A DNA stretch of 64,000 bases from contig NZ_JAPCHV010000011.1 in NCBI RefSeq assembly GCF_026107645.2, positions 62,001-126,000 of the forward strand. Reading direction: 5' to 3'. The notes beneath the pieces were generated by a model. The model saw only the letters and a program-made list of their open reading frames with translations, made no database searches and had not been told where the DNA came from. Positions 43,393 to 61,530 of this stretch are shown one piece after another; position 1 is the stretch's first letter; the number at the start of each line of letters is the position of its first letter. Made by a program: the position numbers and the translations under genes. This DNA comes from Flavobacterium sp. MFBS3-15 (GTDB lineage: Bacteria; Bacteroidota; Bacteroidia; Flavobacteriales; Flavobacteriaceae).

Positions 43393-43418
43393 TATTGGAT
43401 ACTTACATTTTTACAATT

Positions 43419-46467: not shown

Positions 46468-46490
46468 AATTATACTGATTTGGTATAATT
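46468..46490 (+). promoter_or_regulatory. perfect 8-7-8 operator upstream of the PAPS operon
   Basis: Half-sites aattatac (46468-46475) and gtataatt (46483-46490) are exact inverted copies around a 7-base spacer. The dyad lies 15 bases upstream of the promoter at 46506-46533, centred about 60 bases before the expected start of transcription, a usual place for an activator or repressor. Confidence 0.5.
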
Positions 46491-46505
46491 AATAGAATTC
46501 TTCGC

Positions 46506-46533
46506 TTGCTATTGTGAAATTGCATTATATTTG
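46506..46533 (+). promoter_or_regulatory. promoter of the cysQ-DUF2061-cysC-cysD-cysN block
   Basis: TTG (46506-46508), 17 bases, TATATTTG (46526-46533). It lies 84 bases before the cysQ start codon in a 192-base gap and indicates that PAPS genes have their own transcript besides read-through from upstream. Confidence 0.7.
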
Positions 46534-46617
46534 CCCGGTTGCTAAGAGCTTGAGATTGTTAAGAAAAACAGGCTTTCGAAGCAATTTTTGAAAATATAAA
46601 ACCAAACCATACAATTG

Positions 46618-47418
46618 ATGAACCAGAACTACAAAACAGCCATAAAAGCCAGTATTGAGGCAGGAGAGGCGATCATGCAAATTTATGTAAAGGATTTTGC
46701 AGTTGATTACAAACAGGACGAGTCGCCCCTGACCGATGCCGACAAGGCTGCTAATGAGGTTATCATGGAGCACCTGATGCCTATTGGAATCCCTGTAATC
46801 AGTGAGGAAAACAAACAATTGCCATATGAAGAACGTAAAGGCTGGACATCTTGTTGGATAGTGGACCCACTTGACGGTACAAAGGAATTCATCAAGAAGA
46901 ATGGAGAGTTTACTGTAAATATTGCATTAGTGACTAATGGTGTGCCACAATTTGGTGTAATTTATGTCCCTGCTGTAAATATGGTGTATTATGCCGATGC
47001 AGCTACAGGTACTGCCTATCGTGCTGAAGTCAAAGATACCTCTGCAGATGTTGAAGAAGTGTTAAAAAATGCAGTTGCCATTGGCCCGGCAAGGGACGAT
47101 AAGGCGATGAGGGTGGTAGGCAGCCGGTCACATATGAGCCAGGATACATTGGAGTATGTAGATGGCCTTAAACAAGTTACGGATAAGGAAATAGAGATTG
47201 TTTCTAAGGGTAGTTCACTTAAATTTTGCCTTGTTGCAGAAGGTAAAGCTGATGTTTACCCCAGGTTTGCCCCTACCATGGAATGGGATACAGCTGCAGG
47301 ACAGGCCATCTGTAAGGCTGTTGGCGTTTCTGTCATTGATTGGGGAACCAAGCAGGAAATGCAGTATAATAAAGAGAATCTTTTAAATCCGTATTTTTTA
47401 GTGTCATATGAAGGATAA
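46618..47418 (+). CDS. cysQ: 3-prime(2-prime),5-prime-bisphosphate nucleotidase CysQ
   Basis: A 266-residue inositol-monophosphatase-fold enzyme (ATG 46618). Metal site I: DESPLTDADKAANE; metal site II: WIVDPLDGTKEFIKKNGEF; C-terminal site PTMEWDTAAGQAI. It hydrolyses 3-prime-phosphoadenosine 5-prime-phosphate (PAP), the by-product of sulfotransferases, to AMP. First gene of the PAPS block; it overlaps the next gene by 11 bases. Confidence 0.95.
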   Translation: MNQNYKTAIKASIEAGEAIMQIYVKDFAVDYKQDESPLTDADKAANEVIMEHLMPIGIPVISEENKQLPYEERKGWTSCWIVDPLDGTKEFIKKNGEFTVNIALVTNGVPQFGVIYVPAVNMVYYADAATGTAYRAEVKDTSADVEEVLKNAVAIGPARDDKAMRVVGSRSHMSQDTLEYVDGLKQVTDKEIEIVSKGSSLKFCLVAEGKADVYPRFAPTMEWDTAAGQAICKAVGVSVIDWGTKQEMQYNKENLLNPYFLVSYEG

Positions 47419-47878
47419 TTCACACAAGCGGCATTTAGTTAAGGCGGTTAGCTGGCGTGTAGTGGGTACTATTGATACCATGCTGCTTAGCTGGCTGATT
47501 TCCGGAGACCCAATGATAGGTGTCAAGGTAGGCTTCTCTGAAGTATTGACCAAAATATTGCTCTATTATCTTCATGAGCGGGCGTGGTTTAAAATTAACC
47601 TTTCTAAAGACGGGATATTACGCGAAAGCCGCAAGCGCCACCTTGCAAAAACTGTTAGCTGGCGTATGGTTGGGACAATCGACACTATGATACTTGCCTG
47701 GATTATTTCGGGTAATCCTCTCACAGGATTTAAAATCGGCCTTTCGGAAGTGATGACTAAAATGACGCTTTATTACCTGCACGAAAGGATTTGGTATAAA
47801 GTGAAATTCGGCCTGCCTAAAGAAAAGATTGAAGAAATGGAAGCAGTAAAGGCTGCTAAGCAAAACGGCAAGATATGA
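47408..47878 (+). CDS. tandem DUF2061 membrane protein
   Basis: A 156-residue protein made of two DUF2061 repeats. Repeat 1 (about 7-62): KRHLVKAVSWRVVGTIDTM ... GFSEVLTKILLYYLHERAW; repeat 2 (about 75-130): KRHLAKTVSWRMVGTIDTM ... GLSEVMTKMTLYYLHERIW. Each repeat has two hydrophobic helices, giving four membrane helices with a basic R-H-x2-K-x2-SWR face. DUF2061 genes recur beside PAPS-synthesis genes, so a role in sulfate or PAPS handling at the membrane is a reasonable inference. Overlaps cysQ by 11 and cysC by 4 bases. Confidence 0.88.
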   Translation: MKDNSHKRHLVKAVSWRVVGTIDTMLLSWLISGDPMIGVKVGFSEVLTKILLYYLHERAWFKINLSKDGILRESRKRHLAKTVSWRMVGTIDTMILAWIISGNPLTGFKIGLSEVMTKMTLYYLHERIWYKVKFGLPKEKIEEMEAVKAAKQNGKI

Positions 47879-48468
47879 GCGAAAATATTGTAATGCATGA
47901 TTATGTGGTTTCGAGAGAAATGCGAAATCATAAGAACAAACATAAATCGGTTGTATTATGGTTTACCGGCCTTTCCGGCTCAGGGAAATCGACTATTGCT
48001 AATAAGGTTGAAGAAGCGCTTTTTCTTGACGGCCTTCAGACCTATACACTGGATGGAGATAACATCCGCTCAGGAATAAATAAAGGGCTGAGTTTCTCTG
48101 AAGAGGACAGGTATGAAAATTTAAGGCGTATCGCAGAAGTGGCAAAACTATTTGCAGATGCGGGAATGGTCACGATAGGAGCTTTTGTATCGCCTTTGCA
48201 TAAAGACAGGGAATTGGTGAGAAACATTGTTGGCGGGGCCGATTTTGTGGAAATCTTTGTAGATACCAGCCTGGAAGAGTGTGAGCGCAGGGATGTTAAG
48301 GGCCTTTATAAAAAAGCCCGTGCCGGTGAGATTAAGAACTTTACAGGCATAGATGCCCCTTACGAGAAGCCTGTTAATCCTGATGTTTTAATCGAAACTG
48401 AAAAGGAATCTATTGATATGGCAGTTAAAAAAGTAGTTACATTTGTAAAGCATAAACTTGAAATTTAA
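47875..48468 (+). CDS. cysC: adenylyl-sulfate kinase CysC
   Basis: A 197-residue P-loop kinase of full length: GLSGSGKSTIANKVEEAL, YTLDGDNIRSGINKGLSFS, RIAEVAKLFADAGMV, FVSPLHKDRELVR, and GLYKKARAGEIKNFTGIDAPYE in part (lid and substrate loop). It phosphorylates adenosine 5-prime-phosphosulfate (APS) to PAPS. Start overlaps the DUF2061 stop by 4 bases. Confidence 0.96.
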   Translation: MSENIVMHDYVVSREMRNHKNKHKSVVLWFTGLSGSGKSTIANKVEEALFLDGLQTYTLDGDNIRSGINKGLSFSEEDRYENLRRIAEVAKLFADAGMVTIGAFVSPLHKDRELVRNIVGGADFVEIFVDTSLEECERRDVKGLYKKARAGEIKNFTGIDAPYEKPVNPDVLIETEKESIDMAVKKVVTFVKHKLEI

Positions 48469-48472
48469 AGCA

Positions 48473-49378
48473 ATGAGCAAATATTATTTGAATTACCTTG
48501 ACGAGTTAGAGTCCGAAGCAATATTCATTCTTCGCGAAGTATGGGCACAGTTCCAAAACCCCGTAATCCTTTTTTCAGGCGGTAAGGACTCGATTGTTGT
48601 AACCCATCTGGCTAAAAAAGCTTTTCATCCTGCAAAAATACCTTTTGCTCTATTGCATGTTGACACCGGGCACAACTTTCCGGAAACGATGCAGTTCAGG
48701 GACGATCTTGTAAAGGAGCTGGGTGTAAGCCTGCTTGTGGGATCTGTACAGGAAGCTATTGACAAAGGCCGCGTTACTGAGGAAAAAGGTAAAAATGCAA
48801 GCCGTAACGTGCTTCAGATTACAGCCTTGCTTGATGCTATAGAAAGTAACAAAATCGATTGTGCCATTGGCGGTGGCCGTAGGGACGAGGAAAAAGCAAG
48901 GGCAAAAGAGCGCTTCTTCTCTCACAGGGACGACTTTGGCCAATGGGATCCTAAAAACCAGCGTCCTGAGCTTTGGAACCTGTTGAATGGCAAGCATTTT
49001 ATGGGTGAACACTTTAGGGCATTCCCTATCAGTAACTGGACTGAAATGGATGTTTGGAACTATATTAAGCGTGAAAACATTGCAATACCCTCCCTTTATT
49101 TCGCACACGACCGAGAAGTTGTGTGGCGTAATGACAGCTGGATACCAAAATCGGAATATCTTAAACTGGATGGAAGAGAAGAGGTTATCACTAAAAGGAT
49201 ACGTTTCCGTACCCTTGGAGATATTACGATTACAGGAGGTATTGAATCTGACGCAGATACACTTGCCAAGATTGTGGATGAAGTTTCCACTATGCGCCAT
49301 ACCGAAAGGGGTAACCGTTCTGATGACAAACGTTCAGAATCTTCTATGGAAGACAGGAAACGCGAAGGATATTTCTAA
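48473..49378 (+). CDS. cysD: sulfate adenylyltransferase subunit 2 CysD
   Basis: A 301-residue PP-loop ATPase (ATG 48473, 4 bases after the cysC stop). FSGGKDSIVVTHLAKKAF is the PP-loop; LLHVDTGHNFPETMQFRD, GGGRRDEEKARAKERFFS and the closing HTERGNRSDDKRSESSMEDR segment are characteristic. With CysN it forms ATP sulfurylase, making APS from ATP and sulfate; CysN hydrolyses GTP to drive the reaction. Confidence 0.97.
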   Translation: MSKYYLNYLDELESEAIFILREVWAQFQNPVILFSGGKDSIVVTHLAKKAFHPAKIPFALLHVDTGHNFPETMQFRDDLVKELGVSLLVGSVQEAIDKGRVTEEKGKNASRNVLQITALLDAIESNKIDCAIGGGRRDEEKARAKERFFSHRDDFGQWDPKNQRPELWNLLNGKHFMGEHFRAFPISNWTEMDVWNYIKRENIAIPSLYFAHDREVVWRNDSWIPKSEYLKLDGREEVITKRIRFRTLGDITITGGIESDADTLAKIVDEVSTMRHTERGNRSDDKRSESSMEDRKREGYF

Positions 49379-49455
49379 GAGGAAAGCAAATTACCAATCC
49401 ATATTTAATAAATTGTACAATCTAAGCCCGAGCTTACAACTTATACTTCAATACA

Positions 49456-50715
49456 ATGAGCATTGACAATAATCAGCTATTACGATTTACAACGGCAGGA
49501 AGCGTTGACGACGGAAAAAGTACCCTTATAGGACGCCTTTTATATGATTCCAAATCTATTTTTGAAGATCAATTGGAAGCCATTGAGGCGACCAGTAAAA
49601 GAAAAGGGCACGGAGGTGTAGACCTTGCGCTTTTTACAGACGGACTCAGGGACGAGCGTGAGCAGGGTATTACTATAGACGTGGCGTACCGCTACTTTAC
49701 AACACCAAAGCGGAAGTTTATCATTGCAGATACACCGGGACACATACAGTATACACGTAATATGGTAACCGGAGCTTCTACCGCCAATGCAGCCATCATC
49801 CTCATCGATGCGCGCCATGGCGTTATAGAGCAAACCAAAAGGCATGCTTTCATTGCGTCGCTCCTGCAGATTCCACATATCATTGTATGTGTAAATAAGA
49901 TGGATCTTGTTGATTTTTCTGAAGAGGTTTATACGAAGATTGTTTCGCAGTTTGAGGAGTTCTCCTCAAAGTTGAATGTTAAGGACGTACATTTTATTCC
50001 AATCAGTGCGCTTGATGGCGACAATGTGGTAAACAGGTCTGAAAGGGCCGACTGGTATCAGGGATCCCCACTTTTGCATGTGCTTGAAACTCTGCATATC
50101 AGTAGCGACATTAATAAGATTGATGCACGATTCCCCGTACAGACAGTTATCAGGCCACAGCGTGAAGGGTTTATTGACTACAGAGGTTATGCGGGAAGGA
50201 TTGCAAGCGGAATATACCGTGTTGGAGATGATGTTGTAGTGCTTCCTTCAGGATTTACTTCAAAGATCAAGTCAATAAACGCCGGTGAGGTTGAAGTTGA
50301 TGAGGCTTTCGCTCCAATGTCGGTTGCCATACAGCTTGAAGATGATATAGATGTGGGACGTGGCGATATGATCGTAAAGGCGAACAACCAGCCTGAATTA
50401 TTCCAGGAATTCGACGTAATGCTTTGCTGGTTAAATAACAATCCAATGAAACCGGGTGCGAAATATACGCTTATGCATACTTCGAATGAGCAGCGTGCAA
50501 TTATAAAAGACGTAATTTACAAAGTCGATATCAATACCTATGAAAGGATTACCGACAATAAAGATCTTCAAATGAACGATATTTCACGAGTAACCCTGAA
50601 AACAAACAACCGTTTGATGCTTGACTCATATCGTGAGAACCGTATTACAGGAAGTATCATCCTTGTTGATGAAGGTACCAACGAAACGGTTGCTGCCGGT
50701 ATGGTTGTTAACTAA
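49456..50715 (+). CDS. cysN: sulfate adenylyltransferase subunit 1 CysN
   Basis: A 419-residue EF-Tu-like GTPase: TAGSVDDGKSTLIGRLLYD (P-loop), EREQGITIDVAYRYF (switch I), ADTPGHIQYTRNM (switch II) and VNKMD (NKxD). Domains II and III follow. The protein lacks a fused kinase domain, consistent with a separate cysC. GTPase partner of CysD in ATP sulfurylase. No cysH, cysI or cysJ follows, so this copy does not look like part of an assimilatory sulfate reduction operon. Confidence 0.97.
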   Translation: MSIDNNQLLRFTTAGSVDDGKSTLIGRLLYDSKSIFEDQLEAIEATSKRKGHGGVDLALFTDGLRDEREQGITIDVAYRYFTTPKRKFIIADTPGHIQYTRNMVTGASTANAAIILIDARHGVIEQTKRHAFIASLLQIPHIIVCVNKMDLVDFSEEVYTKIVSQFEEFSSKLNVKDVHFIPISALDGDNVVNRSERADWYQGSPLLHVLETLHISSDINKIDARFPVQTVIRPQREGFIDYRGYAGRIASGIYRVGDDVVVLPSGFTSKIKSINAGEVEVDEAFAPMSVAIQLEDDIDVGRGDMIVKANNQPELFQEFDVMLCWLNNNPMKPGAKYTLMHTSNEQRAIIKDVIYKVDINTYERITDNKDLQMNDISRVTLKTNNRLMLDSYRENRITGSIILVDEGTNETVAAGMVVN

Positions 50716-50799
50716 TATGGCTAACCTGACTTAAGAATACTTTGTGTTTTTGAGGTAGGCTGCCCGCAATAATTCTCCTGAATATTTTAATACTATAAA

Positions 50800-52281
50800 G
50801 TGTCGTCCAAGGAAAAAACATTAAAATCTAAAGCAAAAAATGCTTTAGCCTGGGATCTTGCAGGTTCCTTTTTGAGGCAAGCTGTTAGTTTAGGGATAAC
50901 TATTCTTTTAGCCCGCCTTCTTGCTCCGGAGCAATTCGGTATTATTGGGATGAGCCTTATATTTATTACTGTTACCCAGGTGTTTATAGACGTTGGGTTT
51001 ACAGATGGCCTGATTCAGAAAAAAGACGCAAGTGATGTTGCATATTCATCGATTTTTTATATCAATATCGCTATAAGCGTACTTTTAGCAGTAATAATTT
51101 TCTTTGCGGCCCCTTATATCGGTGTATTTTATGAGAATGCCCAGGTTACTGTCGTTTTGCGTTGGCTTTCTGTTGTTCCGGTCATTGGAGCTTTGGGTAA
51201 AGTCCACGGTACGATACTTGTAAAAAACCTGAATTTTAAATCCCTTAATATAAGGGACATTGTCGCAACTATTGCCGGTGGTATAGCCGGAGTAATAGCT
51301 GCCTTCAACGGGCAGGGAGTGCTTAGTTTGGTTTGGCAGCAAATCGTCACTGCTCTTGTAGGGACAATAAGTTTATGGTTTAGCTCAAACTGGCGGCCAA
51401 AACTTATTTTTTCGCTTGCTGAAGTTCGTGCGCTTTTTTCTTATTCCAGCTATATTTTCCTCGATCAGTTCATGAGGAATGTTTTTGACAGGATTGACAC
51501 ACTTTTTATAGGTAAAGTATTTTCTCCTGCAATATTAGGTTTTTACACGAGGGCTGAATCGCTAAATGCTCAGATTAATTCTTATTGTTCCAATAGCCTT
51601 CGTAAAATTGTTTTTCCTATTTTAAGTACTGTACAGGATGATGATGAACGTTTTAAAACGATATATTTTAAGGTATTTAACTTAGCATCTGTCGTTTCGT
51701 CATCAATTGCGGGAGTCTTATTCTTTCTATCGGACAAGATCATTTTGGGTCTTCTCGGAGGTAAGTGGGCACCAAGTATAGTCATTTTCCAGATATTGGT
51801 TTTCAAAACGCTAACTTCTCCTTTCGGAGCTTTATTAAGCAAAGCATTGTTGAGCAAAGGCTTTTCCAAAGTAAAATTTAATCTTAGTATCGTGCAAAGG
51901 TTAATAATGTTTACTCCTTTGACGTTGGGTTATCTTTATAATGATATTACAGTATTCGTAATTATAATGGTTATTGCCAATGTTGTAGCTTTTATAGTTA
52001 ATGCATACGTAGTATATCGTTATCTCCATCTTAGCTTTGCAAAACAACTTTCGGGCTTTTTTGTGCCATTAGTTCCGTTATTTGGCTTATACATAGGGTA
52101 CAAACAACTTTTTCCGGAGATAAGTTCATGGATTTTAGCTATTATATTTATCGCTTTACAATGGATATTTTTTATAGCAACCAAGAATGCAGGCTATCAA
52201 TTTATTCTGCATGAACTTAAACCAATTGTCAGCAAAGTGAAGAATTCAATGCCACAATTTTTAAAAAGGATTTATCGGTGA
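50800..52281 (+). CDS. Wzx/WzxC-type polysaccharide flippase
   Basis: A 493-residue integral membrane protein (GTG start at 50800) with about 12-14 transmembrane helices. The MOP-superfamily opening is clear: NALAWDLAGSFLRQAVSLG, LLARLLAPEQFGIIGMSLIF, DVGFTDGLIQKKDASDVAYS. The WzxC-like group exports lipid-linked repeat units across the inner membrane. It opens the polymer-building block, 84 bases after cysN. From about here the DNA becomes visibly richer in A and T. Confidence 0.92.
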   Translation: MSSKEKTLKSKAKNALAWDLAGSFLRQAVSLGITILLARLLAPEQFGIIGMSLIFITVTQVFIDVGFTDGLIQKKDASDVAYSSIFYINIAISVLLAVIIFFAAPYIGVFYENAQVTVVLRWLSVVPVIGALGKVHGTILVKNLNFKSLNIRDIVATIAGGIAGVIAAFNGQGVLSLVWQQIVTALVGTISLWFSSNWRPKLIFSLAEVRALFSYSSYIFLDQFMRNVFDRIDTLFIGKVFSPAILGFYTRAESLNAQINSYCSNSLRKIVFPILSTVQDDDERFKTIYFKVFNLASVVSSSIAGVLFFLSDKIILGLLGGKWAPSIVIFQILVFKTLTSPFGALLSKALLSKGFSKVKFNLSIVQRLIMFTPLTLGYLYNDITVFVIIMVIANVVAFIVNAYVVYRYLHLSFAKQLSGFFVPLVPLFGLYIGYKQLFPEISSWILAIIFIALQWIFFIATKNAGYQFILHELKPIVSKVKNSMPQFLKRIYR

Positions 52282-52357
52282 ATTTCCTTTACAGTTTCTT
52301 AAATGAGTATATAATCGTGCTTGAAGAATATAACTAGTGTTTAAGGCTTAATTTTTT

Positions 52358-52831
52358 ATGGATTTACAATTAAAAATATATTTATTTCTTAAGAGAAGGA
52401 TTGGAAAAATACAGGAACAGCATTATAAGAAATTGTATAACTTAAGTTCCAGCGTGCGACTACACAATCCGTTAATAACAACTTTGAAAGGTAATATTAG
52501 CATTGGTCCACACACATATATTAATTCGGGAAGATTCTTAACGGGAAAAGAATCCAAAATAGTGATTGGTGAAAGCTGTGCAATTGGCCATAATGTTACA
52601 ATATCAAGTATCACGCATGATTTAGCACAGCCTACAGGTCCTAATATTAAACATATCGAGAGTGATACGATCATTGGTAATAACGTATGGATAGGCACTA
52701 ACGTGTTTATAAAAGAAGGTATTATTATTGGGAATAATTGTGTAATAGGCGCAAACAGCGTAGTAACTAAAAGTTTTCCGGACAATTCAATTATTGGGGG
52801 AATTCCTGCAAAATTAATTAGGACGCTGTAA
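52358..52831 (+). CDS. hexapeptide-repeat O-acyltransferase
   Basis: A 157-residue left-handed beta-helix protein: repeated hexapeptides (ISIGPHTYINSG, VIGESCAIGHNVTI, TIIGNNVWIGTNVFI, IIIGNNCVIGANSVV) and the catalytic-type His in SSITHD, with the end GGIPAKLIRTL typical of maltose/virginiamycin-type acetyltransferases. It probably adds acetyl groups to a sugar of the repeat unit using acetyl-CoA. The stop codon is directly followed by the ATG of the next gene. Confidence 0.85.
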   Translation: MDLQLKIYLFLKRRIGKIQEQHYKKLYNLSSSVRLHNPLITTLKGNISIGPHTYINSGRFLTGKESKIVIGESCAIGHNVTISSITHDLAQPTGPNIKHIESDTIIGNNVWIGTNVFIKEGIIIGNNCVIGANSVVTKSFPDNSIIGGIPAKLIRTL

Positions 52832-53656
52832 ATGGAATATACCAAAATTATATGGATGTACTGGCATCAGGGTTTTGAACAAGCACCTGAAATTGTTTCA
52901 CGCTGTGTGGAACAATGGATTGTGATGCATCCTGACTGGGAAATAAAATTGCTTGATCAAAACTCTGTTAATCAATATGCCGGGCCTTTGCCCATAGCGG
53001 AAAATGTTCTTAATAAACTTAACCTAGCCCACAGGTCTGACCTTATAAGGACGCAATTATTAATAAAATATGGTGGAGTTTGGGCCGATCCTACTACTTT
53101 TTGTACCACAAGCCTGAATTCATGGATTCCGGAATATTTGTCAGGCGGTCTTTTTATGTTTTATAAACCAGGGAGAGACAGGATTATTTCCAATTGGTTT
53201 ATAGCTGCAGAAAAAGACAATATGATTTTGAAAAAAATGTTTAAGGAATTATGTGAATATTGGCAGAATAACAAATTTAAGAATCATGGTTCCAAAGTTT
53301 GGTATGAAGCTTTTTGTAATCGCTTGCTAAATCGTTCCCTGCCGCTTACAAAATTATGGTTCACGTTCTTATTTAAAAAAGTCTTAAGGATTTACCCTTA
53401 TATGGTATACCACTATAAATTTTACCAAATTATTAGTTCAACAAAAAAATATGAATCGATTTGGAATTCAGTCCCTAAGTTTTCAGCACATATACCTCAT
53501 AAACTTCTTCATTTAGGCCTTTTAAAACCATTAACTTCAGAAGGTAAGGATTGGATAGATCAAAAAAAGTCTCCCATCTTTAAACTAACATGGAAATTAG
53601 GCGTTCAAGAGTTTCCAAAGGGATCATTACTGAAATATATATTTGAAAATGAGTAA
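52832..53656 (+). CDS. capsular polysaccharide glycosyltransferase (Caps_synth / GT32-like)
   Basis: A 274-residue protein with IIWMYWHQGFEQAPEIV (N-terminal strand and the WxQG turn), WEIKLLDQNSVNQY, and the nucleotide-sugar segment LAHRSDLIRTQLLIKYGGVW followed by ADPT, where Asp residues stand in for the DXD metal site. It belongs to the capsular polysaccharide synthesis group (PF05704). Acceptor and donor are not readable. The next gene overlaps its last 8 bases. Confidence 0.85.
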   Translation: MEYTKIIWMYWHQGFEQAPEIVSRCVEQWIVMHPDWEIKLLDQNSVNQYAGPLPIAENVLNKLNLAHRSDLIRTQLLIKYGGVWADPTTFCTTSLNSWIPEYLSGGLFMFYKPGRDRIISNWFIAAEKDNMILKKMFKELCEYWQNNKFKNHGSKVWYEAFCNRLLNRSLPLTKLWFTFLFKKVLRIYPYMVYHYKFYQIISSTKKYESIWNSVPKFSAHIPHKLLHLGLLKPLTSEGKDWIDQKKSPIFKLTWKLGVQEFPKGSLLKYIFENE

Positions 53657-54725
53657 TATTAAACTATATCTCCACGTTGGAACTGAAAAGACAGGCAGTT
53701 CCTTTCTTCAGGCATTGCTATCACAAAATAGGGATAAACTTTGGGCGAAAGGAATACATTATCCTTCAGGGGGTAAGTATGAACGAGGAATGAAGGCCGG
53801 TAGAATATCTCCTGGTAACGGTAAGTACCTTTGGGAAATACTTATGAAGAAGGACTGGAATAGACTTAAACATTTGTTGCAGGGATATAAAGCAGAGGCA
53901 GAAAAAAGGAATAGCAGCAAAATACTCATTTCAAACGAAAATATTGTAGAAGCATTTTCACAGGAAGCAACGCTTTATGAATTCACAGAATGTTGTAAAA
54001 ATTTAAGCATCGATATTTCCGGCATGCTATTGGTTTTGCGTGACCCTGTAGATCAGGCATTATCCCTTTATAAGCACAGAGCTAAAAGTGGAAATATTGC
54101 AAGTATTGATAAGTGGCTTGAAGAAGGATATTTTTTGCCCCGTTTTTTATTTGGTTTTTTCCAAAATGTAGAAGAATCTAAAACTCACCTTCTTGTTCAG
54201 AAGTATCATAAAAACAGTGCTATTCTTTCAGAATATTTTTTTAAGGACTGGTTAGGAATAGAGGTACCTCCACATTCAGATGATACTTCTGTCAATCCGT
54301 CACTTACCTTGTCGGAATTACAGGTAATTAAGCAAGTAAAGACAATCAGTCCAAATTTGGTGCCGTTTTATTATAAGCGCATGCTTACAATACCTGTGAA
54401 ACAAAAGGCCGAAGATAAGTTTCTTAAAAAGAAATACTTATCGGTAATATCTTCATATTTGGTAAAATATAATTCTTTGTGGAATCATTGCAATGATATG
54501 ATTTTTAATAGTGATAAGCTACAACTTCCAGTAGGAGAAGATATTATTCAAGATAGCGGATCGATATTATGTTTTTCGGAAATACAAACTGAAGCATTTG
54601 TTTTGTTGATGAAGGAAAGCAATACCTTACCCTACAAAATTGATGTTGCTTTTAACCAGAGAATAAGGCCAAAGCTTGCTAAAATTAAATGGGCTGTTAT
54701 AGATTATATTAAAAAGGGAAAATAA
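53649..54725 (+). CDS. sulfotransferase-like protein 1
   Basis: A 358-residue protein (ATG 53649; a TTG two codons upstream is possible). The PAPS 5-prime-phosphosulfate loop is read in YLHVGTEKTGSSFLQALL (about 5-22), and the 3-prime-phosphate motif in LVLRDPVDQALSLYKHR (about 132-148). The rest is helical and only weakly like known families. It would move sulfate from PAPS to a hydroxyl of the polymer or its lipid-linked precursor, probably in the cytosol since it lacks a signal peptide. First of three sulfotransferases here. Confidence 0.78.
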   Translation: MSNIKLYLHVGTEKTGSSFLQALLSQNRDKLWAKGIHYPSGGKYERGMKAGRISPGNGKYLWEILMKKDWNRLKHLLQGYKAEAEKRNSSKILISNENIVEAFSQEATLYEFTECCKNLSIDISGMLLVLRDPVDQALSLYKHRAKSGNIASIDKWLEEGYFLPRFLFGFFQNVEESKTHLLVQKYHKNSAILSEYFFKDWLGIEVPPHSDDTSVNPSLTLSELQVIKQVKTISPNLVPFYYKRMLTIPVKQKAEDKFLKKKYLSVISSYLVKYNSLWNHCNDMIFNSDKLQLPVGEDIIQDSGSILCFSEIQTEAFVLLMKESNTLPYKIDVAFNQRIRPKLAKIKWAVIDYIKKGK

Positions 54726-54726
54726 A

Positions 54727-55413
54727 ATGGGCGATAATAAAAAAAGCAAAGTAATTTGTATCGGATGGCATAAAACAGGCACTACAACTATGGGAGAGGC
54801 GCTTCTCCTTTTAGGTTATAAAGTGGTTGGTGCGAGATTGGATTTTGCCGAATCACTATTAGAAAGTGATTATACTAAGGTTCTGAAGGAAGCTGAAAAA
54901 TTTGAAGCGTTTCAGGATGTTCCATGGGCAGCTTTATATAAAGAGCTTGATGCCGCTTTCCCCGGGAGCAAATTTATTTTAACTATTAGGGACGAATCGA
55001 AATGGATTAAGAGCGCAGTAAAACATTTTGGAAGCAGGGATATATTACTGCACCGATGGTTGTACGGAAATGGAATGGCAGCGGGAAATGAAGAATTATA
55101 TCTTGAGCGTTACAGAAGGCATAATGCTGAAATACTGCAATATTTTAAAAACAGGCCTGATGATTTCTTGCTGTTATCTCTAGAAAATGGTGATGGGTGG
55201 AATAAATTATGCCCATTTTTAGGCGTACCTTTGCCGTCTGTGAAATTTCCTTACGCAAATAAAGCCAGACATAACTACACCTTTAGAGAGAAATTTTACG
55301 CATATTTCAGAGATATTATACCTGTGTCTTTAAGAGTTAGAATTTTAATGTTTTTTGCAAAGAAAAATAAAAGAAACAGGTTTAATAACTATTATGAAAA
55401 TAAAGTTAAGTAA
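54727..55413 (+). CDS. sulfotransferase family protein 2
   Basis: A 228-residue P-loop protein: VICIGWHKTGTTTMGEALLL (5-prime-phosphosulfate loop, about 9-28), FQDVPWAALYKELDAAFPGS, and ILTIRDESKWIKSAVKHFG (3-prime-phosphate motif). The order and the DVP-W-x-x-LYKELD segment match the Sulfotransfer_4-type family. The C-terminus is basic. It starts one base after sulfotransferase 1. Donor PAPS is inferred from the motifs and from the PAPS genes just upstream. Confidence 0.85.
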   Translation: MGDNKKSKVICIGWHKTGTTTMGEALLLLGYKVVGARLDFAESLLESDYTKVLKEAEKFEAFQDVPWAALYKELDAAFPGSKFILTIRDESKWIKSAVKHFGSRDILLHRWLYGNGMAAGNEELYLERYRRHNAEILQYFKNRPDDFLLLSLENGDGWNKLCPFLGVPLPSVKFPYANKARHNYTFREKFYAYFRDIIPVSLRVRILMFFAKKNKRNRFNNYYENKVK

Positions 55414-55448
55414 ACAATTAAATTACGGATTTAATTAACTAAAATGAT

Positions 55449-56618
55449 ATGAAAATATTATTTGTTCTAGCGCAGGCTTTCGATCCAAACGCAGGAGGTG
55501 TGCAGCGTACTACTTTTACATTGGGAAAACATTTTAGTGAAAAAGGATTTGACGTAGCCTATTTTTCTTTTTCTAATAAACATCAAGCTAAACCGCAGTA
55601 TGGTCGTTTGTTTTTTGTTATAGCTGCAGGGGGGAGCGCTATAAAGGCTAATAAAGCCTTGTTTATAGAGAATTTAGAAAATTTTAAACCTGATTATGTT
55701 ATTAATCAAGCTCCTTATGACAAGAATATCCGTGATTTATTGTCATACCACAGTTTTTTTTTAAAGTATATTAATTTAGCGTGTATACATAATTCATTAT
55801 TTAGTTTTAAGAGCAATGTAGAGGATATTCTCATGTCACGATTCCCGACATATTTAAAACTAATAATTACTTCCAGGATAGTAAAACTAATTGCCCAAAG
55901 AAATCATTTAATTAAGCATCGAAAGGAATTAACAGATATAATAAGCAAGCATGACAAACTTATATTGTTGACCCCTAAAAATATTGAAGAACTGGAATAT
56001 TTTTTAGGCAAGAACTATCCTAAAGAAAAAATTATATCAATTCCCAACCCAATCGCTATTTTCGAGAACCAATTAGATGAAAAGGAAAATGTTTTACTTC
56101 ATGTTGGCAGAATCAATATACCTCAAAAGCGATCAGACTTATTGCTAAAGACCTGGGAGTTGTGCTATGATCAATTGCCTGGATGGACTTTTATAATTGT
56201 TGGTGACGGCCCATATCTAACTGTTTTGCAAAGAAAGATTGAAGAAAAAAAAATACCAAGGGTTATAGTGACAGGATTTCAAAATCCTGAAGAGTATTAT
56301 CGAAAAGCGAAACTATTTATGATGCCCTCAGCATACGAAGGGTTGCCAAATACTATACTTGAAGCGCAAAGCTATGGGTGCGTTTCTTTTGCATTCGACT
56401 CCTATGCTGCGATTGGCTGGATTGTTAACGACAAACAAGATGCACTATTATTACAACCCTTTGATGTCAAAGCAATGGCAGAATCTATAATTGATTTAGC
56501 AAATAAACCTGACAAATTATTAAAAATGCAAAAAAATGCTCTCAATAACGTAAACAGGTTTGCGATTGACACAGTAATTAACAGCTGGATTAGCCTATTT
56601 GATGAGACAAGAAAATAA
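55449..56618 (+). CDS. glycosyltransferase family 4
   Basis: A 389-residue GT-B enzyme: N-terminal glycine loop FDPNAGGVQRTTFTLGKHF, C-terminal domain with HVGRINIPQKRSDLLLKTWE, IIVGDGPYLTVL, VTGFQNPEEYYRKAKLFMMP and SAYEGLPNTILEAQSYG (E-x7-E). Retaining sugar transfer from a nucleotide sugar, cytosolic face of the inner membrane. Its last 17 bases overlap the polymerase gene. Confidence 0.92.
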   Translation: MKILFVLAQAFDPNAGGVQRTTFTLGKHFSEKGFDVAYFSFSNKHQAKPQYGRLFFVIAAGGSAIKANKALFIENLENFKPDYVINQAPYDKNIRDLLSYHSFFLKYINLACIHNSLFSFKSNVEDILMSRFPTYLKLIITSRIVKLIAQRNHLIKHRKELTDIISKHDKLILLTPKNIEELEYFLGKNYPKEKIISIPNPIAIFENQLDEKENVLLHVGRINIPQKRSDLLLKTWELCYDQLPGWTFIIVGDGPYLTVLQRKIEEKKIPRVIVTGFQNPEEYYRKAKLFMMPSAYEGLPNTILEAQSYGCVSFAFDSYAAIGWIVNDKQDALLLQPFDVKAMAESIIDLANKPDKLLKMQKNALNNVNRFAIDTVINSWISLFDETRK

Positions 56619-57888
56619 TAGACATAATGTACCTTACCTTTTAACAATGGTAGCCATATCGCCTGCCATAAGTTTGTTTTATCTTATATCTAATTTTGAT
56701 TGGAAGGTCAAAAAGCCTTTTTTTATATTCCTAACAGTTCTTTTTGGAGCTACAATTTTGCTTTCAAGTTCCGATGGGGCTGTGTTGAAAGAACTTGTAT
56801 ATATACATTATATTAATTTGCCGTTTAACCAATGGCTGGATGAACTAATTCAGATTCTCCAATTCAAGCAACCATATGGAACAAAAGGAGATGTTTTCAA
56901 CCACTTGGTTTCTTACATTTCCGGGACTCTTCTAATGCTACCAGAAACTTACTTTTATTTAGTTTCTTTTGTCTATGCATATTTCTTTGTGAATAGTTTG
57001 GAAAAAATATTGAATAGACCTACAATAGGACATAAAGGAATTTTATTTTGGCTTATAATTATAATTTTTGTTACTTATCGTTTTGTGGATAATCTCCAAT
57101 CCGTAAGGACATGGACTGGTTTGTGGGTCCTTTTTTACGGAACATATTGTTTCTACACAACGGGGAAGAAAAAATATCTTTTAATAATGTTGATGGCCCC
57201 ACTATTTCATATTGCTTACTTTATTATGGCGCTGCCTGTTTATTTGAGTATTATTTTAAAGAAAGTGGATTTCCGAATATTAGTTATCTTCTATATCATG
57301 TCTTTTTTTATTACAATAAATCACGAAGCGATTGTTAAACAGCTTGGTAGTACCGACATTGGAGCTAATAAGATTGATGCTTATTATGACGAAGATGGCG
57401 GTACAGATATTTCTCAAAGGAGGGTATCAGGTACCTTTTATGCTGTTTATGGCAGGAGTTGGTCCCAAATACAATCACCCCACATCCTCATCTTTGCTTT
57501 AATATTATCAGGCTTTATAACTAGAAAACGCTTAACTGCCATAGAATATGGTCTTTTTTGTAGTGCCTTACTATTATCAATAACTGCTAATTTAGTGTCT
57601 TTTATTGGTGCTTTTTATGTCCGGACAATGACAAATGCAGGGATATATGTGACGGCTGCAACTGCTTTATTGGCCATGAGAGGGGCTTTTGATATAAAAA
57701 GCACAGGACATTTAAATTTATTTCAGAAAACTGCTTTATGGATTGCTTTATTAACCTTTATTCCTTATATTATATACGTAGTCGCTAACATGTTCCAATT
57801 TACCAGCGCATATATGATAGTGTTTCCAATAGGAGGTTTTTTTGGCGATAATATTTCAATCGGCCAATTACTAAAACAATTTTTTTAA
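56602..57888 (+). CDS. EpsG/Wzy-like polysaccharide polymerase
   Basis: A 428-residue integral membrane protein (ATG 56602; an internal ATG at 56647 is also possible) with about ten transmembrane helices and large polar loops (YIHYINLPFNQWLDELIQ, KQPYGTKGDVFNHLVSYISG, FVDNLQSVRTWTGLWV). The layout and loop residues match EpsG-type proteins, which act as Wzy polymerases joining repeat units in the periplasm. It is the only polymerase candidate in the window. Confidence 0.82.
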   Translation: MRQENNRHNVPYLLTMVAISPAISLFYLISNFDWKVKKPFFIFLTVLFGATILLSSSDGAVLKELVYIHYINLPFNQWLDELIQILQFKQPYGTKGDVFNHLVSYISGTLLMLPETYFYLVSFVYAYFFVNSLEKILNRPTIGHKGILFWLIIIIFVTYRFVDNLQSVRTWTGLWVLFYGTYCFYTTGKKKYLLIMLMAPLFHIAYFIMALPVYLSIILKKVDFRILVIFYIMSFFITINHEAIVKQLGSTDIGANKIDAYYDEDGGTDISQRRVSGTFYAVYGRSWSQIQSPHILIFALILSGFITRKRLTAIEYGLFCSALLLSITANLVSFIGAFYVRTMTNAGIYVTAATALLAMRGAFDIKSTGHLNLFQKTALWIALLTFIPYIIYVVANMFQFTSAYMIVFPIGGFFGDNISIGQLLKQFF

Positions 57889-57892
57889 ATTT

Positions 57893-59005
57893 ATGAGTAT
57901 AAAAAATCAATTTATAAAATCCCTTAGCAATCTGGTTGGTTTTTCAACCAAGAGAAAAATTGTGGTTATTGAATCTGACGATTGGGGAAGCATCCGTATG
58001 CCTTCTAACGAAATCAGGCAAGAATTACAGCAAAAAGGTATTCCACTAGGCGAGGGTACTCCAGGATACAGTTACAATTTATACGATACATTAGCTTCTG
58101 AAGATGATTTGAGCCATTTGTTTGAAGTACTTTCGAGTTTTAGGGATAAGAATGGAAGGCACCCTGTATTTACAGGAATGAGTTTAGTTGCAAACCCTGA
58201 TTTTGAAAAGATAAGACAATCTGGGTTTCAAGAATATCATTATGAGTCTTTTACGGAAACATTAAAGAGGGAAGGTAAAAACTCATTCAAACTTTGGAAG
58301 GAAGGAGAAAAAAATGGAATTTTTTGGCCTGAATTTCATGGAAGGGAACACTTGAATGTTCCTGTATGGCTAAGAAGCCTACAAATGAATGATGAAAATA
58401 CATTGAGAGCTTTTGACTCTGGAATATGGGGCTTTAAAAGGAAAGGCATCAATTACCAAGCTGCATTTGACCTGGAATTCAGTACTGATTTGGCCTTTCA
58501 GAAAGAAATCATTGCTGATGGGTTAAAGCTTTTTAAAGAAATACACGGAAGAGAAGCCAGTCTTTTTGTGCCGCCAAATGGACCTTTTAACGAAAGCCTA
58601 GAAGAGGTGGCGGCTAAGGGAGGCATTAAATATATGTCTGCTGCTAAAATTCATAAACAGCCTTTAGGAAATGGAAAGATGAAGAATAAATATCATTGGC
58701 TGGGACAAAAAAATAAGCATGACCAAATATACATAACAAGGAATGCATTTTTCGAACCGTCTAATCCTTCCAGGAATTGGAATGCAGATTGCCTCAATGA
58801 TATTCAAATCGCATTCAGGTTTAACAAGCCTGTGGTAATAAGTACGCACCGGGTTAATTATATTGGGTCATTGGATGTTAATAACCGGGATAAGGGCTTG
58901 AGAGAGCTGGGAAGTCTCTTTAAAGAAATCCTGAACCGTTGGCCGGATGTCGAATTTATGACGTCAACGGAATTAGGGAATTTGATGTCTGGCAAATTAA
59001 CATGA
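57893..59005 (+). CDS. CE4-like polysaccharide (de)acetylase, paralogue 1
   Basis: A 370-residue protein with an order of motifs like a diverged NodB/CE4 deacetylase: VVIESDDWGSIRMPS (Asp pair, about 25-39), FHGREHLNV (H-x3-H, about 148-156), FVPPNGPFNESL and VISTHRVNYIGSL (C-terminal His). No signal peptide is visible. It shares these motifs and also SLVANPDFEKIRQS and RNAFFEPSNPS with the protein at 59570-60688. Predicted role: removal or transfer of acetyl groups on the polymer or a precursor. The fold assignment is inferred from motif spacing. Confidence 0.65.
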   Translation: MSIKNQFIKSLSNLVGFSTKRKIVVIESDDWGSIRMPSNEIRQELQQKGIPLGEGTPGYSYNLYDTLASEDDLSHLFEVLSSFRDKNGRHPVFTGMSLVANPDFEKIRQSGFQEYHYESFTETLKREGKNSFKLWKEGEKNGIFWPEFHGREHLNVPVWLRSLQMNDENTLRAFDSGIWGFKRKGINYQAAFDLEFSTDLAFQKEIIADGLKLFKEIHGREASLFVPPNGPFNESLEEVAAKGGIKYMSAAKIHKQPLGNGKMKNKYHWLGQKNKHDQIYITRNAFFEPSNPSRNWNADCLNDIQIAFRFNKPVVISTHRVNYIGSLDVNNRDKGLRELGSLFKEILNRWPDVEFMTSTELGNLMSGKLT

Positions 59006-59024
59006 TGTAATTTTATTATAAAAC

Positions 59025-59570
59025 ATGATTCCGATTGTAAAAAAAGACCTGTATAGGTATTTTCCGCAAAAATATTCTTTCAGAATATTGCTGAAAGGCA
59101 TGAGGTCACAAGGATTCCGCTATATGTTTTTTCGTAGGTTGAGAGACCATTATGGGAAAAAGTCTTTTATGGGAATTATCTCTTTTTTTTTTCTTCGGCA
59201 CTATACCTACAAGTATGGTTTTCAAATAGGAGGCAAGATAGGAGCAGGTTTTTACATAGGCCACTTTGGTACTATAGTGATAAGTAACCTGGCAGTTATT
59301 GGTTCCAATTGTAACATTGCTCATGGAGTTACAATAGGTGCGGCCCGGAGGAGTAAAATGGGTGCCCCGAAAATAGGTAGCAACGTATGGATGGGTGCGA
59401 ATTCTGTTATGGTAGGTAACATTACTATAGGAGACGATGTGATGATAGCACCAGGGGCATTTGTAAATTTCGATGTGCCTGACCATTCTCTGGTAATTGG
59501 AAACCCTGGTAAAATTATACCTAAAGATATTGCAACGGAAGGATATATCAACAATATTTTAGAGGACTAA
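59025..59570 (+). CDS. serine-acetyltransferase-like hexapeptide acyltransferase
   Basis: A 181-residue protein: a helical N-terminus (about 1-65) followed by a left-handed beta-helix (IGGKIGAGFYIGHFGTIVI, IGSNCNIAHGVTIGAARR, IGSNVWMGANSVMVGNITI, IGDDVMIAPGAFVNFDVP). The catalytic-type His is in NIAHGVTIG and the pattern GNPGKII resembles CysE-like sugar acetyltransferases. It lies between the two CE4-like genes, 19 bases after the first and overlapping the second by one base (TAATG), which suggests opposite or successive acetyl edits. Confidence 0.85.
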   Translation: MIPIVKKDLYRYFPQKYSFRILLKGMRSQGFRYMFFRRLRDHYGKKSFMGIISFFFLRHYTYKYGFQIGGKIGAGFYIGHFGTIVISNLAVIGSNCNIAHGVTIGAARRSKMGAPKIGSNVWMGANSVMVGNITIGDDVMIAPGAFVNFDVPDHSLVIGNPGKIIPKDIATEGYINNILED

Positions 59571-60688
59571 TGTTATTATCAAACTATATATCACAAATAC
59601 CCGGATACCATACAAACCGTAAATTGATTGTGATTGAGTCAGATGACTGGGGAAGTATCCGTACTTCATCAAAAGATAATATGGACAAACTAGGAAGCAG
59701 GTTTACCCATTTCTGTAAAGATCCCTATTTTTATTATGACAGGCTCGAGAATGTTTCTGATCTTGAATCACTTTACGAGGTACTCGCATCTGTAAAAGAC
59801 AGCAATGGCCGTCCAGCGATTTTAACTGCAAATACAATTGTTGCCAATCCGAATTTTGAAGCAATACAAAAAAGTGCTTATTCAGACTACAGTTACGAGT
59901 TATTTACCGACACATTGAAAAAACGGGATGGTAACCTGCACGTATTTGACACAATAAAAGAAGGGATGGCAGCAAAAGTTTATCGGCCGCAGCTACATGG
60001 ACGGGAGCATTTAAACGTTAATCAGTGGTTAAAAGGACTAAATGAAGGCCACACCGAACTTTTGGCGGCATTTGAGCATCACATGTTTGGCGTTCCGTTA
60101 AATCAGCGGATAAATATGCGAAGAAATGTCATGGCTGCGCTTGACTTTAATGATAATCATGAAATAAATTTACACAGGGATATACTTTTTGCAGCTCAAA
60201 ATCATTTTGAGGAATTATTTGGTTTCCGGTCTATTACATTCATTGCGCCAAGCTACATTTGGCATCCGACCCATGAGCAATTTTTGCAGGACATGGGAAT
60301 ATTAGGGATACAAGGCCTGCCATATCAATATATCCCTAATCCGGGTGGCACCTGGTACAAGAAGAAATTTCGCTACACGAAACGTGAAAAAGATAATCCC
60401 GTGGCATTGGTACGAAATGCATTCTTTGAGCCGTCTCTTGATGATACGGGAAAAGATACCGTCGCGGAATGCCTCAGAAGGATATCAATAGCGTTTACAA
60501 TGAAAAAGCCAGCCATAATTGGGAGCCACCGGCTAAACTATATTGGGAGCCTCTCTGAAAAAAACAGGGAACATACCTTAACTTTGCTTCGTCAATTATT
60601 AAAAGAAATAGTTACAAGGTGGCCATCTGTTGAATTTGTTAGTTCCGACGAACTCACCAGACTTATAAAATATAAGATTCAATTTTAA
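59570..60688 (+). CDS. CE4-like polysaccharide (de)acetylase, paralogue 2
   Basis: A 372-residue paralogue of the protein at 57893-59005: LIVIESDDWGSIRTSS, TIVANPNFEAIQKSAYSDY, QLHGREHLNVNQWLKGL, FIAPSYIWHPTHEQFL, RNAFFEPSLDDTG, GSHRLNYIGSLSEKNRE and TRWPSVEFVSSDEL. The Asp pair, H-x3-H and final His are all kept. The middle third differs more, as expected for a change of substrate. It starts in the stop codon of the acyltransferase gene. Confidence 0.65.
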   Translation: MLLSNYISQIPGYHTNRKLIVIESDDWGSIRTSSKDNMDKLGSRFTHFCKDPYFYYDRLENVSDLESLYEVLASVKDSNGRPAILTANTIVANPNFEAIQKSAYSDYSYELFTDTLKKRDGNLHVFDTIKEGMAAKVYRPQLHGREHLNVNQWLKGLNEGHTELLAAFEHHMFGVPLNQRINMRRNVMAALDFNDNHEINLHRDILFAAQNHFEELFGFRSITFIAPSYIWHPTHEQFLQDMGILGIQGLPYQYIPNPGGTWYKKKFRYTKREKDNPVALVRNAFFEPSLDDTGKDTVAECLRRISIAFTMKKPAIIGSHRLNYIGSLSEKNREHTLTLLRQLLKEIVTRWPSVEFVSSDELTRLIKYKIQF

Positions 60689-60699
60689 ATTACAATAGG

Positions 60700-61530
60700 A
60701 TGAACACTCCAAATTTTTTAATAGTAGTATCTCAAAAAGCCGGTACAACATCTTTGCATGATATACTACGTATGCACCCTGAAGCGAATATGTCTGAAGT
60801 TAAAGAAATAAATTTTTTTACTTTGGAGCAAAAATATTCGAAAGGGCTGGAATATTATCGTCACTATTTTAAGCCTCAATCGGAGGATCAGAAGGTTACT
60901 GGAGAATCTAGCCCAGGATATATATGCCATCCGGGTGTGGCGCAAAAAATTAGACAAGACTTGGGGCCTATCAAAATTGTGATTATATTAAGAGACCCCA
61001 TCAAGAGAGCGCTTTCCCAATATTGGGATAATAGAAGGCACTTGAGCGAAGCCTTGGAATTTGAAGAAGTGGTTGATAAGTATATGGACGACACCTATCT
61101 GCCCGAAAGGCTTGGTTATATTAGTCGGGGTGTATATGTAAAATATATTATGCAATACGAAGCTCTTTTCGGTAGGGAAAATTTGCATATAATGATACTG
61201 GAAGACCTCATTGCAAATCAAGAGGAAGAGCTAAGAAATCTATATAGATTTTTGAGCATTAATGAGACACTTGGGTTGCGGTTACTTCCGAAGGCTTCAA
61301 ACAGTTCTATGATATGGACAAACCCATTATATAGCCTGATGTTCAAAAACCCACATTATACTAAATATTTGCCTAAGAGGCTGAGGCGGTTTTTCTTTTT
61401 TGGCAAGGCAATAAACTATAAATACCAGTTGCCTAAAGAGAGTGTGATAAAAAAACTAACTGATTTTTATTCTCCGTGGAATAAAAAACTTGAGCAATAT
61501 TTAAACAGGAGCCTGGACTCATGGCTATAA
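60700..61530 (+). CDS. sulfotransferase 3 (Sulfotransfer_1 type)
   Basis: A 276-residue sulfotransferase of the heparan-sulfate type: LIVVSQKAGTTSLHDILRMH (5-prime-phosphosulfate loop, about 6-25, with Ser where Gly is common), VKEINFFTLEQKYSKG (the catalytic-type KE and F-F segment), TGESSPGYICHPGVAQKI, and VIILRDPIKRALSQYWDNRR (3-prime-phosphate motif). All parts needed for PAPS binding are present. It starts 11 bases after paralogue 2 of the CE4-like pair. Confidence 0.92.
   Translation: MNTPNFLIVVSQKAGTTSLHDILRMHPEANMSEVKEINFFTLEQKYSKGLEYYRHYFKPQSEDQKVTGESSPGYICHPGVAQKIRQDLGPIKIVIILRDPIKRALSQYWDNRRHLSEALEFEEVVDKYMDDTYLPERLGYISRGVYVKYIMQYEALFGRENLHIMILEDLIANQEEELRNLYRFLSINETLGLRLLPKASNSSMIWTNPLYSLMFKNPHYTKYLPKRLRRFFFFGKAINYKYQLPKESVIKKLTDFYSPWNKKLEQYLNRSLDSWL

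Follow-up and report, generated by a model that had tools for sequence, protein, structure and literature searches.

The 64,000-nucleotide stretch of the Flavobacterium sp. MFBS3-15 genome analyzed here (the window; all coordinates are window positions, and all genes described in it are on the plus strand) contains a compact block of five genes, cysQ, a gene for a DUF2061 membrane protein, cysC, cysD, and cysN, extending from 46618 to 50715. We interpret the block as a module that supplies the sulfate donor to a surface polysaccharide locus of the Wzx/Wzy type and put the probability of this reading at about 0.83. The locus is predicted to produce a capsule or exopolysaccharide that is rich in uronic acids, acylated, and sulfated, because genes for a cycle of 3'-phosphoadenosine 5'-phosphosulfate (PAPS) and for sulfotransferases sit within a polysaccharide locus. 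The genome has a size of 3.99 Mb, is divided into 43 contigs, and has a stated completeness of 99.83%.

Sulfate-donor block

The families of the encoded enzymes and their co-localization are evident from profile matches and gene positions. CysQ, CysC, CysD, and CysN all pass curated cut-offs. The 3'(2'),5'-bisphosphate nucleotidase CysQ (46618..47418), which removes 3'-phosphoadenosine 5'-phosphate (PAP), matches TIGR01331 with 264.8 bits (cut-off 228.8). The adenosine 5'-phosphosulfate (APS) kinase CysC (47875..48468), responsible for PAPS synthesis, matches PF01583 with an E-value of 3e-67 and NF003013 with 282 bits (cut-off 163). Subunit 2 of ATP sulfurylase, CysD (48473..49378), scores 409 bits in TIGR02039 (cut-off 396.6), and the GTPase subunit 1, CysN (49456..50715), 560 bits in TIGR02034 (cut-off 336). 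The motifs GLSGSGKS of CysC, SGGKDS of CysD, GSVDDGKS, DTPGH, and NKMD of CysN, and DPLDGTKEF of CysQ are intact, and we take them to have their usual functional meaning.

The cysQ, DUF2061, and cysC genes overlap end to end, and cysD, with a likely start at the ATG at 48473, follows directly. The cysC, cysD, and cysN genes are placed between uronic-acid sugar genes and wzx. A PAPS cycle of CysDN, CysC, and CysQ in a polysaccharide locus, and its position between nucleotide-sugar genes and a flippase/polymerase set, had been proposed in a sequence-only reading of the window, and both proposals are borne out. The start of the region at 46468 given there has to be moved: the frame from that position contains stops, and cysQ begins at the ATG at 46618. 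The DUF2061 gene (47408..47878) between cysQ and cysC was not named there.

We infer the order of the steps, the acceptor, and the sulfated product from the gene content. CysDN would convert sulfate to APS by adenylation, and CysC would phosphorylate APS to PAPS. Two or three sulfotransferases, presumed to be cytoplasmic, would then transfer sulfate to the repeat unit on its lipid carrier, or to the sugars of the unit, ahead of flipping by Wzx, and CysQ would clear the leftover PAP. The DUF2061 membrane protein may act where the pathway starts, with a part in sulfate supply as its most likely role.

Sulfotransferases of the locus

The sequence-only reading counted three unlike sulfotransferases, two of which, ST3 (60700..61530; PF00685, E 2e-19) and ST4 (54727..55413; PF17784, E 4e-34), score above their Pfam cut-offs, whereas the third, ST1 (53649..54725), is a sub-threshold match with its motifs kept. 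The nearest solved relatives of ST3 are heparan sulfate 3-O-sulfotransferases (PDB: 3uan, E 5e-20), which are glycosaminoglycan sulfotransferases. ST3 is the only match in the genome to PF00685 and PF13469. The distant relatives of ST4 in the PDB are also sulfotransferases, the nearest being oxamniquine-type sulfotransferases and SgdX2.

ST1 is probably a divergent sulfotransferase, judging from its motifs and a low-confidence model whose structural neighbors are P-loop kinases and sulfotransferases. Its 360-residue frame contains KTGSS at positions 16–20 and RDPVDQALS (R-D-x6-S) at positions 133–141. The residues K14-T15-G16, R131, and S139 are invariant when ST1 is aligned with three proteins whose genes adjoin cysC in one record each from Methylophaga and Shewanella. 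The K-T-G and the R/S pair presumably correspond to the usual PAPS-binding motifs, the 5'-phosphosulfate loop and the 3'-phosphate site. A search of PDB sequences with ST1 gave no match, and among 395 genomes of the order there are three weak relatives besides ST1 itself.

APS kinase and sulfotransferases in the Flavobacteriaceae

The distribution of cysC was surveyed in 149 genomes of the family Flavobacteriaceae from 148 genera. APS-kinase matches were found in 91 genomes; the 70 matches above 160 bits, from 69 genomes, were kept as canonical, and those of 32 bits or less were dropped as partial P-loop matches. Canonical APS kinase is thus present in 69 of the 149 genomes, and the block recurs beside polysaccharide genes, so the arrangement is, contrary to the sequence-only reading, not unusual for a flavobacterium. 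The sulfotransferase profile PF00685 has matches in 57 genomes, 55 of which have cysC; 14 genomes have cysC only, two PF00685 only, and 78 neither (Fisher p 6.5e-25, phylogeny ignored). The sulfite reductase profile PF01077 has matches in 75 genomes, and the 33 of them with cysC correspond to the chance level; 36 genomes have cysC only, 42 PF01077 only, and 38 neither (Fisher p 0.62, phylogeny ignored). The association of cysC with PF00685 persists both within PF01077-positive and within PF01077-negative genomes. Canonical APS kinase in the family goes with sulfation, not with sulfur assimilation. Reduction does not need cysC, since 42 of the 75 PF01077 genomes and four genomes with an APS reductase lack the canonical kinase.

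The gene neighborhoods point in the same direction. Each of the 69 cysC matches outside the window was taken together with as much as 20 kb of surrounding sequence, and these regions, seven of which are shorter than 15 kb, were compared with 40 regions drawn at random from 40 of these genomes. The marker profiles were seeded with window proteins and extended over sequences that included the control regions. In the 62 cysC regions that measure 15 kb or more, a sulfotransferase is present in 29 (0 of the 40 random regions), wzx in 33 (3 of 40), a GT4 enzyme in 32 (5 of 40), and at least one of the three in 52 (6 of 40). Glycosyltransferases are undercounted in these regions because GT2 enzymes were without a seed.

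The loci from named records comprise 80 of 511 loci encoding a relative. The order tviC, tviB, ugd, cysQ, DUF2061, cysC, cysD, cysN, with other genes interspersed in places, occurs in six loci from Salinimicrobium, Salegentibacter, and Christiangramia (L020, L021, L022, L025, L028, and L029); in a seventh (L030), tviC, tviB, and ugd are not in its stretch. Three loci of Salegentibacter and Salinimicrobium (L022, L025, and L028) carry the cys block twice in a span of about 12 kb, as if the donor modules had been duplicated; some of these copies are truncated where the stretch ends, and one is without DUF2061.

Sulfate reduction genes elsewhere in the genome

One cysD and one cysN in the genome score over the cut-offs, and both are in the block. 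Other CysN matches, considered as a possible second cysDN set, reach 30–101 bits, below the cut-off, and were taken for translation GTPases. The PF01507 profile has three matches in the genome: cysD of the block, cysH on contig C8, and a gene for a DndC-type protein on contig C17. This agrees with the claim of the sequence-only reading that no sulfate- or PAPS-reductase gene is in the window. A cysH within the locus was rejected, as the only one of the genome is that on C8 (C8:74114), where it adjoins the gene of an Rrf2-family regulator. With cysH on C8 and cysDN on C11, the contig of the window, the arrangement is not that of an assimilatory operon.

CysH scores 223.3 bits against TIGR02055 (APS reductase), 12 bits short of the cut-off of 235.3, and 122.7 bits against TIGR02057 (PAPS reductase; cut-off 254.2). 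It shows both cysteine pairs, which we take to be the iron–sulfur APS-type signature. In four of the 149 family genomes, CysH exceeds the APS-reductase cut-off, and CysH of the window's genome has the next highest score. Canonical APS kinase is missing from all four, one of which (G127), from the genus of the window, has a PF01077 gene about 3 kb from cysH. CysH on C8 thus most likely takes APS, and cysC would then not be needed for it. The APS made by the block may be shared with CysH, because the sole cysDN is here and cysH is elsewhere in the genome. The window's genome has no match to PF01077, which is found in 11 of 14 control genomes. Because PF01077 is missing and CysH seems to be APS-like, we read PAPS as serving glycan sulfation.

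The sequence-only reading had set against its own proposal the case that this cysDN copy is the only one and serves cysteine synthesis through a cysH elsewhere. The sole cysDN and the cysH on C8 agree with one half of that case. Supply of APS to CysH would leave cysC unexplained if CysH is of the APS type, as it appears to be, and the genome has no PF01077 match. The DndC-type phosphorothioation sulfurtransferase (C17:42224) scores above the TIGR03183 cut-off, and a DNA phosphorothioation system may exist in the strain.

Alternative explanations

Several observations weigh against a block dedicated to polysaccharide sulfation. The one NCBIfam model passed by CysH is NF002537, named phosphoadenylyl-sulfate reductase (248.6 bits, cut-off 154), and the enzyme may use PAPS. 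The score of ST1 is below every curated threshold, with nothing at E≤0.001 and a best match to PF00685 at E 0.002 (17.9 bits, cut-off 22). The AlphaFold2 model of ST1, calculated from four sequences, is poor, with a predicted local distance difference test score (pLDDT) of 50.7. A Foldseek search with this low-confidence model placed the sulfotransferase 3rnl first (E 1e-4) and a tRNA kinase next (E 8e-4), and VIA-align ranked adenylate kinases (Z 11.2) ahead of an N-sulfotransferase (Z 10.5). Because its motifs are kept but its score is sub-threshold, its model poor, and its structural neighbors mixed, ST1 is only a probable sulfotransferase. The solved relatives of ST4 presumably act on small molecules. 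In the family survey, two or more kinds of marker occur in only 30 of the 62 cysC regions (2 of 40 controls), a sulfotransferase was not seen in 33 of these 62 regions of at least 15 kb, and the association tests are uncorrected for relatedness, though 148 genera were sampled.

The cysDN and cysC genes could instead be a general sulfate-activation operon working mainly for reduction via the cysH on C8, with their placement among polysaccharide genes incidental. We consider this unlikely. The block does hold the sole cysD and cysN of the genome, and CysH, encoded beside an Rrf2-family regulator, passes a phosphoadenylyl-sulfate reductase model, but the protein scores 223 bits as an APS reductase and 123 bits as a PAPS reductase and has both cysteine pairs, the genome is without PF01077, cysC of the family tracks sulfotransferases and not sulfite reductase, and elsewhere in the genus, too, the block of other species stands between uronic-acid genes and wzx. 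It is more improbable still that the sulfotransferases act on a lipid, a secondary metabolite, or a protein. Such acceptors have a parallel in Bacteroides, where the putative PAPS genes BT_0411–BT_0415 adjoin BT_0416, which sulfates cholesterol (PMC9417993), and the relatives of ST4 named above would fit them. However, the three sulfotransferase genes of the window are interspersed among genes for a flippase, a polymerase candidate, and glycosyltransferases, the solved proteins closest to ST3 are heparan sulfate 3-O-sulfotransferases, and cysC is enriched beside polysaccharide genes across the family. The least probable explanation, to which we give hardly any weight, is a mainly regulatory block, with PAPS as a signal controlling polysaccharide production. 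PAPS mediates calcium-induced brp expression in Vibrio vulnificus (PMC6113621), but the sulfotransferases in the same locus need PAPS as a substrate, and no PAPS sensor was identified in the locus, though no search for one was made. Sulfation of a surface polysaccharide is the reading that we prefer.

DUF2061 membrane protein

The DUF2061 gene of the block encodes two domain copies in tandem, recognized by PF09834 in two stretches. The AlphaFold2 model (pLDDT 85.5) is helical, with four long helices and a C-terminal one. A Foldseek search of the PDB gave nothing at E≤0.001 (best E 3.3), and therefore no fold is assigned. An alignment of 22 DUF2061 proteins shows K, W-R, T, E, K, Y, H-E, and W to be conserved in both halves.

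Of the 69 family regions, 54 have a DUF2061 gene no more than two open reading frames upstream of cysC, 52 of them with a frame of tandem length (>115 residues); none of the 40 random regions contains such a gene. The domain is present in 114 of the 149 family genomes. Among the matches listed that have short open frames (≤125 residues), 67 of 71 are within 1.5 kb of cysH, two are beside cysC, and two are near neither. Both DUF2061 matches of the window's genome are in the gene beside cysC, and none is near its cysH. PF09834 is fused to the APS kinase domain PF01583 in records from Hydrogenimonas and Calditrichota (L050:2758-3483 and L078:3665-4384).

The accessible parts of the open-access literature mentioning DUF2061 offer no molecular function. 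The domain is tabulated there in connection with iron-related regulation; one study reports lower polymyxin resistance for a mutant of a DUF2061-type gene in Pseudomonas aeruginosa, and another lists a DUF2061 mutation. Our leading guess for the role of DUF2061 is sulfate entry, by analogy, because a sulfate permease in Cobetia and a proposed importer in Bacteroides accompany PAPS genes. An alternative is a membrane anchor for the activating enzymes. Neither role accounts for the iron link or the resistance phenotype. For a conserved transporter near cysC, the one candidate considered, a protein of 598 residues in L159, is without a relative in the other loci retrieved.

A broader proposal, which we put forward tentatively and at clearly less than even odds, joins these observations. 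DUF2061 would be an unrecognized, dedicated membrane part of sulfate activation, perhaps an entry gate passing sulfate to CysDN and CysC, and in Flavobacteriaceae its tandem form would mark PAPS operons and its single form reduction operons. More than one-third of the sampled genomes would then carry the donor module and sulfotransferases for sulfated surface polysaccharides of their own, in swappable cassettes.

Conservation of the locus within the genus

Canonical cysC (>200 bits) is patchily distributed in the genus, with 15 of the 299 genomes containing it; matches of 72–148 bits seem mostly to belong to a different short protein, judging from four fetched regions, of which three were read. 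The same site is occupied in three of the 14 other genomes (L207, L208, and L209), with the order symporter gene, recR, tviC, tviB, ugd, epimerase, cys block, wzx. The genes from tviC to cysN in these loci are 66–92% identical to those of the window, and upxY is present in L207 only (73%). The wzx genes are 48–50% identical, most genes downstream have no match or are 28–42% identical, and the sulfotransferase of these loci has 24–28% identity to ST3. The genus loci end about 10 kb after cysC, and the comparison thus covers window genes up to about 58000. In three further loci (L211, L214, and L215), recR, tviC, ugd, tviB, and the cys block are kept in a changed order. From these sequence comparisons, the locus looks like a fixed donor module beside recR joined to an exchangeable assembly and sulfation cassette. 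The GC content of the window is 0.43 in the conserved part and 0.354 from wzx onward.

Three other loci of the genus (L221, L222, and L223) contain a second, shorter APS-kinase-like gene (about 177 residues) beside a sulfotransferase-like gene with a weak profile match; in L222, one gene is between the two. The neighboring genes look housekeeping by eye, and this is possibly another sulfation system.

Organization of the polysaccharide locus

The locus starts at tviC and runs beyond the end of the window on contig C11. The TviC-like UDP-sugar C4-epimerase (41074..42120) has its best NCBIfam match in NF011728 with 378 bits, below the cut-off of 760, and would convert UDP-GlcNAcA to UDP-GalNAcA. 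It is followed by a TviB-like UDP-GlcNAc 6-dehydrogenase (42124..43392; NF011729 with 563 bits, below the cut-off of 592, and TIGR03026 above its cut-off). The next gene (43395..44816) encodes a nucleotide-sugar dehydrogenase, probably the UDP-glucose 6-dehydrogenase Ugd, which is above the TIGR03026 cut-off and below those of the UDP-glucose dehydrogenase models. A transcription antiterminator of the UpxY family (44899..45411; NF033644 with 135 bits, cut-off 100; PF02357) and an NAD-dependent epimerase (45424..46425; PF01370), perhaps a UDP-GlcA 4-epimerase, precede the cys block. A search for the promoter motif TAnnTTTG counted 78 copies in the window against an expected 66.8, and a copy at 46526, in the gap before cysQ, is not significant.

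The Wzx-type flippase gene (50800..52281; PF13440, E 5e-77) follows cysN. Downstream are a hexapeptide-repeat acyltransferase (52358..52831; PF00132), a capsular polysaccharide synthesis glycosyltransferase (52832..53656; PF05704, E 6e-40), and, after ST1 and ST4, a group 1 glycosyltransferase (55449..56618; PF00534). An EpsG-like protein (56599..57888; PF14897 with 29.4 bits, just below the cut-off of 30.1) is the probable polymerase, in the role of Wzy. A protein with a trace of similarity to polysaccharide deacetylases (57893..59005; PF01522 at E 0.059 only) had no match in the PDB, and a second protein resembling it (59570..60688) has no Pfam match at E≤1. The two are of about 370 residues, have IESDDWGSIR in common (by eye), and are separated by the gene of a second hexapeptide-repeat acyltransferase (59025..59570; PF00132). 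ST3 is followed by two glycosyltransferases (61535..62527, PF13692 and PF13439; 62687..63796, group 1, PF00534).

Past the window, reading of C11 by eye identified genes for GDP-fucose synthesis (fcl and gmd), further glycosyltransferases, sugar-phosphate transferases, a CapD-like protein, Wza, Wzc with a GYGYG tail, and a CpsB-like phosphatase. A Wzx/Wzy-type character of the locus is suggested by the flippase and the polymerase candidate in the window together with the initiating transferases, Wza, and Wzc, the last three recognized by eye only.

Implications

Bacteroidota have mostly been studied as degraders of sulfated polysaccharides. The arrangement described here suggests that a family known as consumers of sulfated sugars may be producers as well. 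If so, many Flavobacteriaceae make sulfated surface glycans, which would bear on capsule diversity, on interactions with phages and grazers, and on natural sources of sulfated polysaccharide. The link of canonical APS kinase to sulfation is a usable rule for the family, and DUF2061 gains a candidate role that is open to testing.

Comparison with known systems

Statements on published systems refer to the accessible parts of the cited papers. The Bacteroides genes BT_0411–BT_0416 resemble the window in having putative PAPS genes beside a sulfotransferase in a member of Bacteroidota; they differ in the cholesterol acceptor of BT_0416, in a proposed sulfate importer, BT_0412, and in that polysaccharide assembly genes are not mentioned in that part of the text (PMC9417993). 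Sediment strains of Lacinutrix, which belong to Flavobacteriaceae, have an APS kinase, a PAP phosphatase, and a putative sulfotransferase, and were proposed as a source of sulfated material, whereas the accessible account mentions no polysaccharide locus or gene neighborhood (PMC4755562). Strains with PAPS reductase and sulfite reductase but without APS kinase were noted in the same work (PMC4755562), in agreement with the split of cysC from sulfite reductase in the family. The cysC and cysDN genes of Zunongwangia (ZPR_0539–0541) were read as sulfate assimilation genes in the genome paper (PMC2864250); by locus tag, they are near a polysaccharide cluster with ZPR_0565. In a metagenome study, all of its Bacteroidetes genomes were without the sulfotransferase sought (PMC9723792). 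We found no description in the accessible open-access literature of the arrangement as a sulfation locus, or as a recurrent one, in Flavobacteriaceae.

The synechan (xss) cluster of Synechocystis 6803 also has sulfotransferases, two from distinct subfamilies, in a polysaccharide cluster, and its sulfated product was measured; it differs from the window in being cyanobacterial, and the terms PAPS and cysC are absent from the accessible text (PMC8205485). The same paper from 2021 states that the synthesis of sulfated extracellular polysaccharides is, within the bacteria, unique to cyanobacteria (PMC8205485). Sulfated capsules with loci of similar logic have nevertheless been proven chemically in Vibrio sp. 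KMM 8419 (PMC11641403) and Cobetia marina KMM 1449 (PMC11766843), and the pairing of PAPS genes with sulfotransferases has been called a hallmark (PMC11641403, PMC11766843). The Vibrio locus contains cysC, cysN, cysD, and three sulfotransferase genes among polysaccharide genes. Unlike the window, it belongs to a gammaproteobacterium, its export is by an ABC transporter (Kps), and its cys genes are second copies; the term cysQ is absent from the accessible text (PMC11641403). The Cobetia capsule locus, the sulfated product of which has a determined structure, contains cysN/cysC, cysD, cysQ, and sulfotransferase genes; in contrast to the window, its cysN/cysC are fused, its export is of the ABC type, and it has a sulfate permease gene where the window has DUF2061 (PMC11766843). 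Because these sulfated capsule loci with resident PAPS genes have been published, the kind of locus is already known. The locus of the window has PAPS synthesis genes together with ST3 and ST4, which are above Pfam cut-offs, and the sub-threshold ST1. By gene content, it belongs to the Vibrio and Cobetia kind, in another phylum and probably with Wzx/Wzy-type instead of ABC-type assembly.

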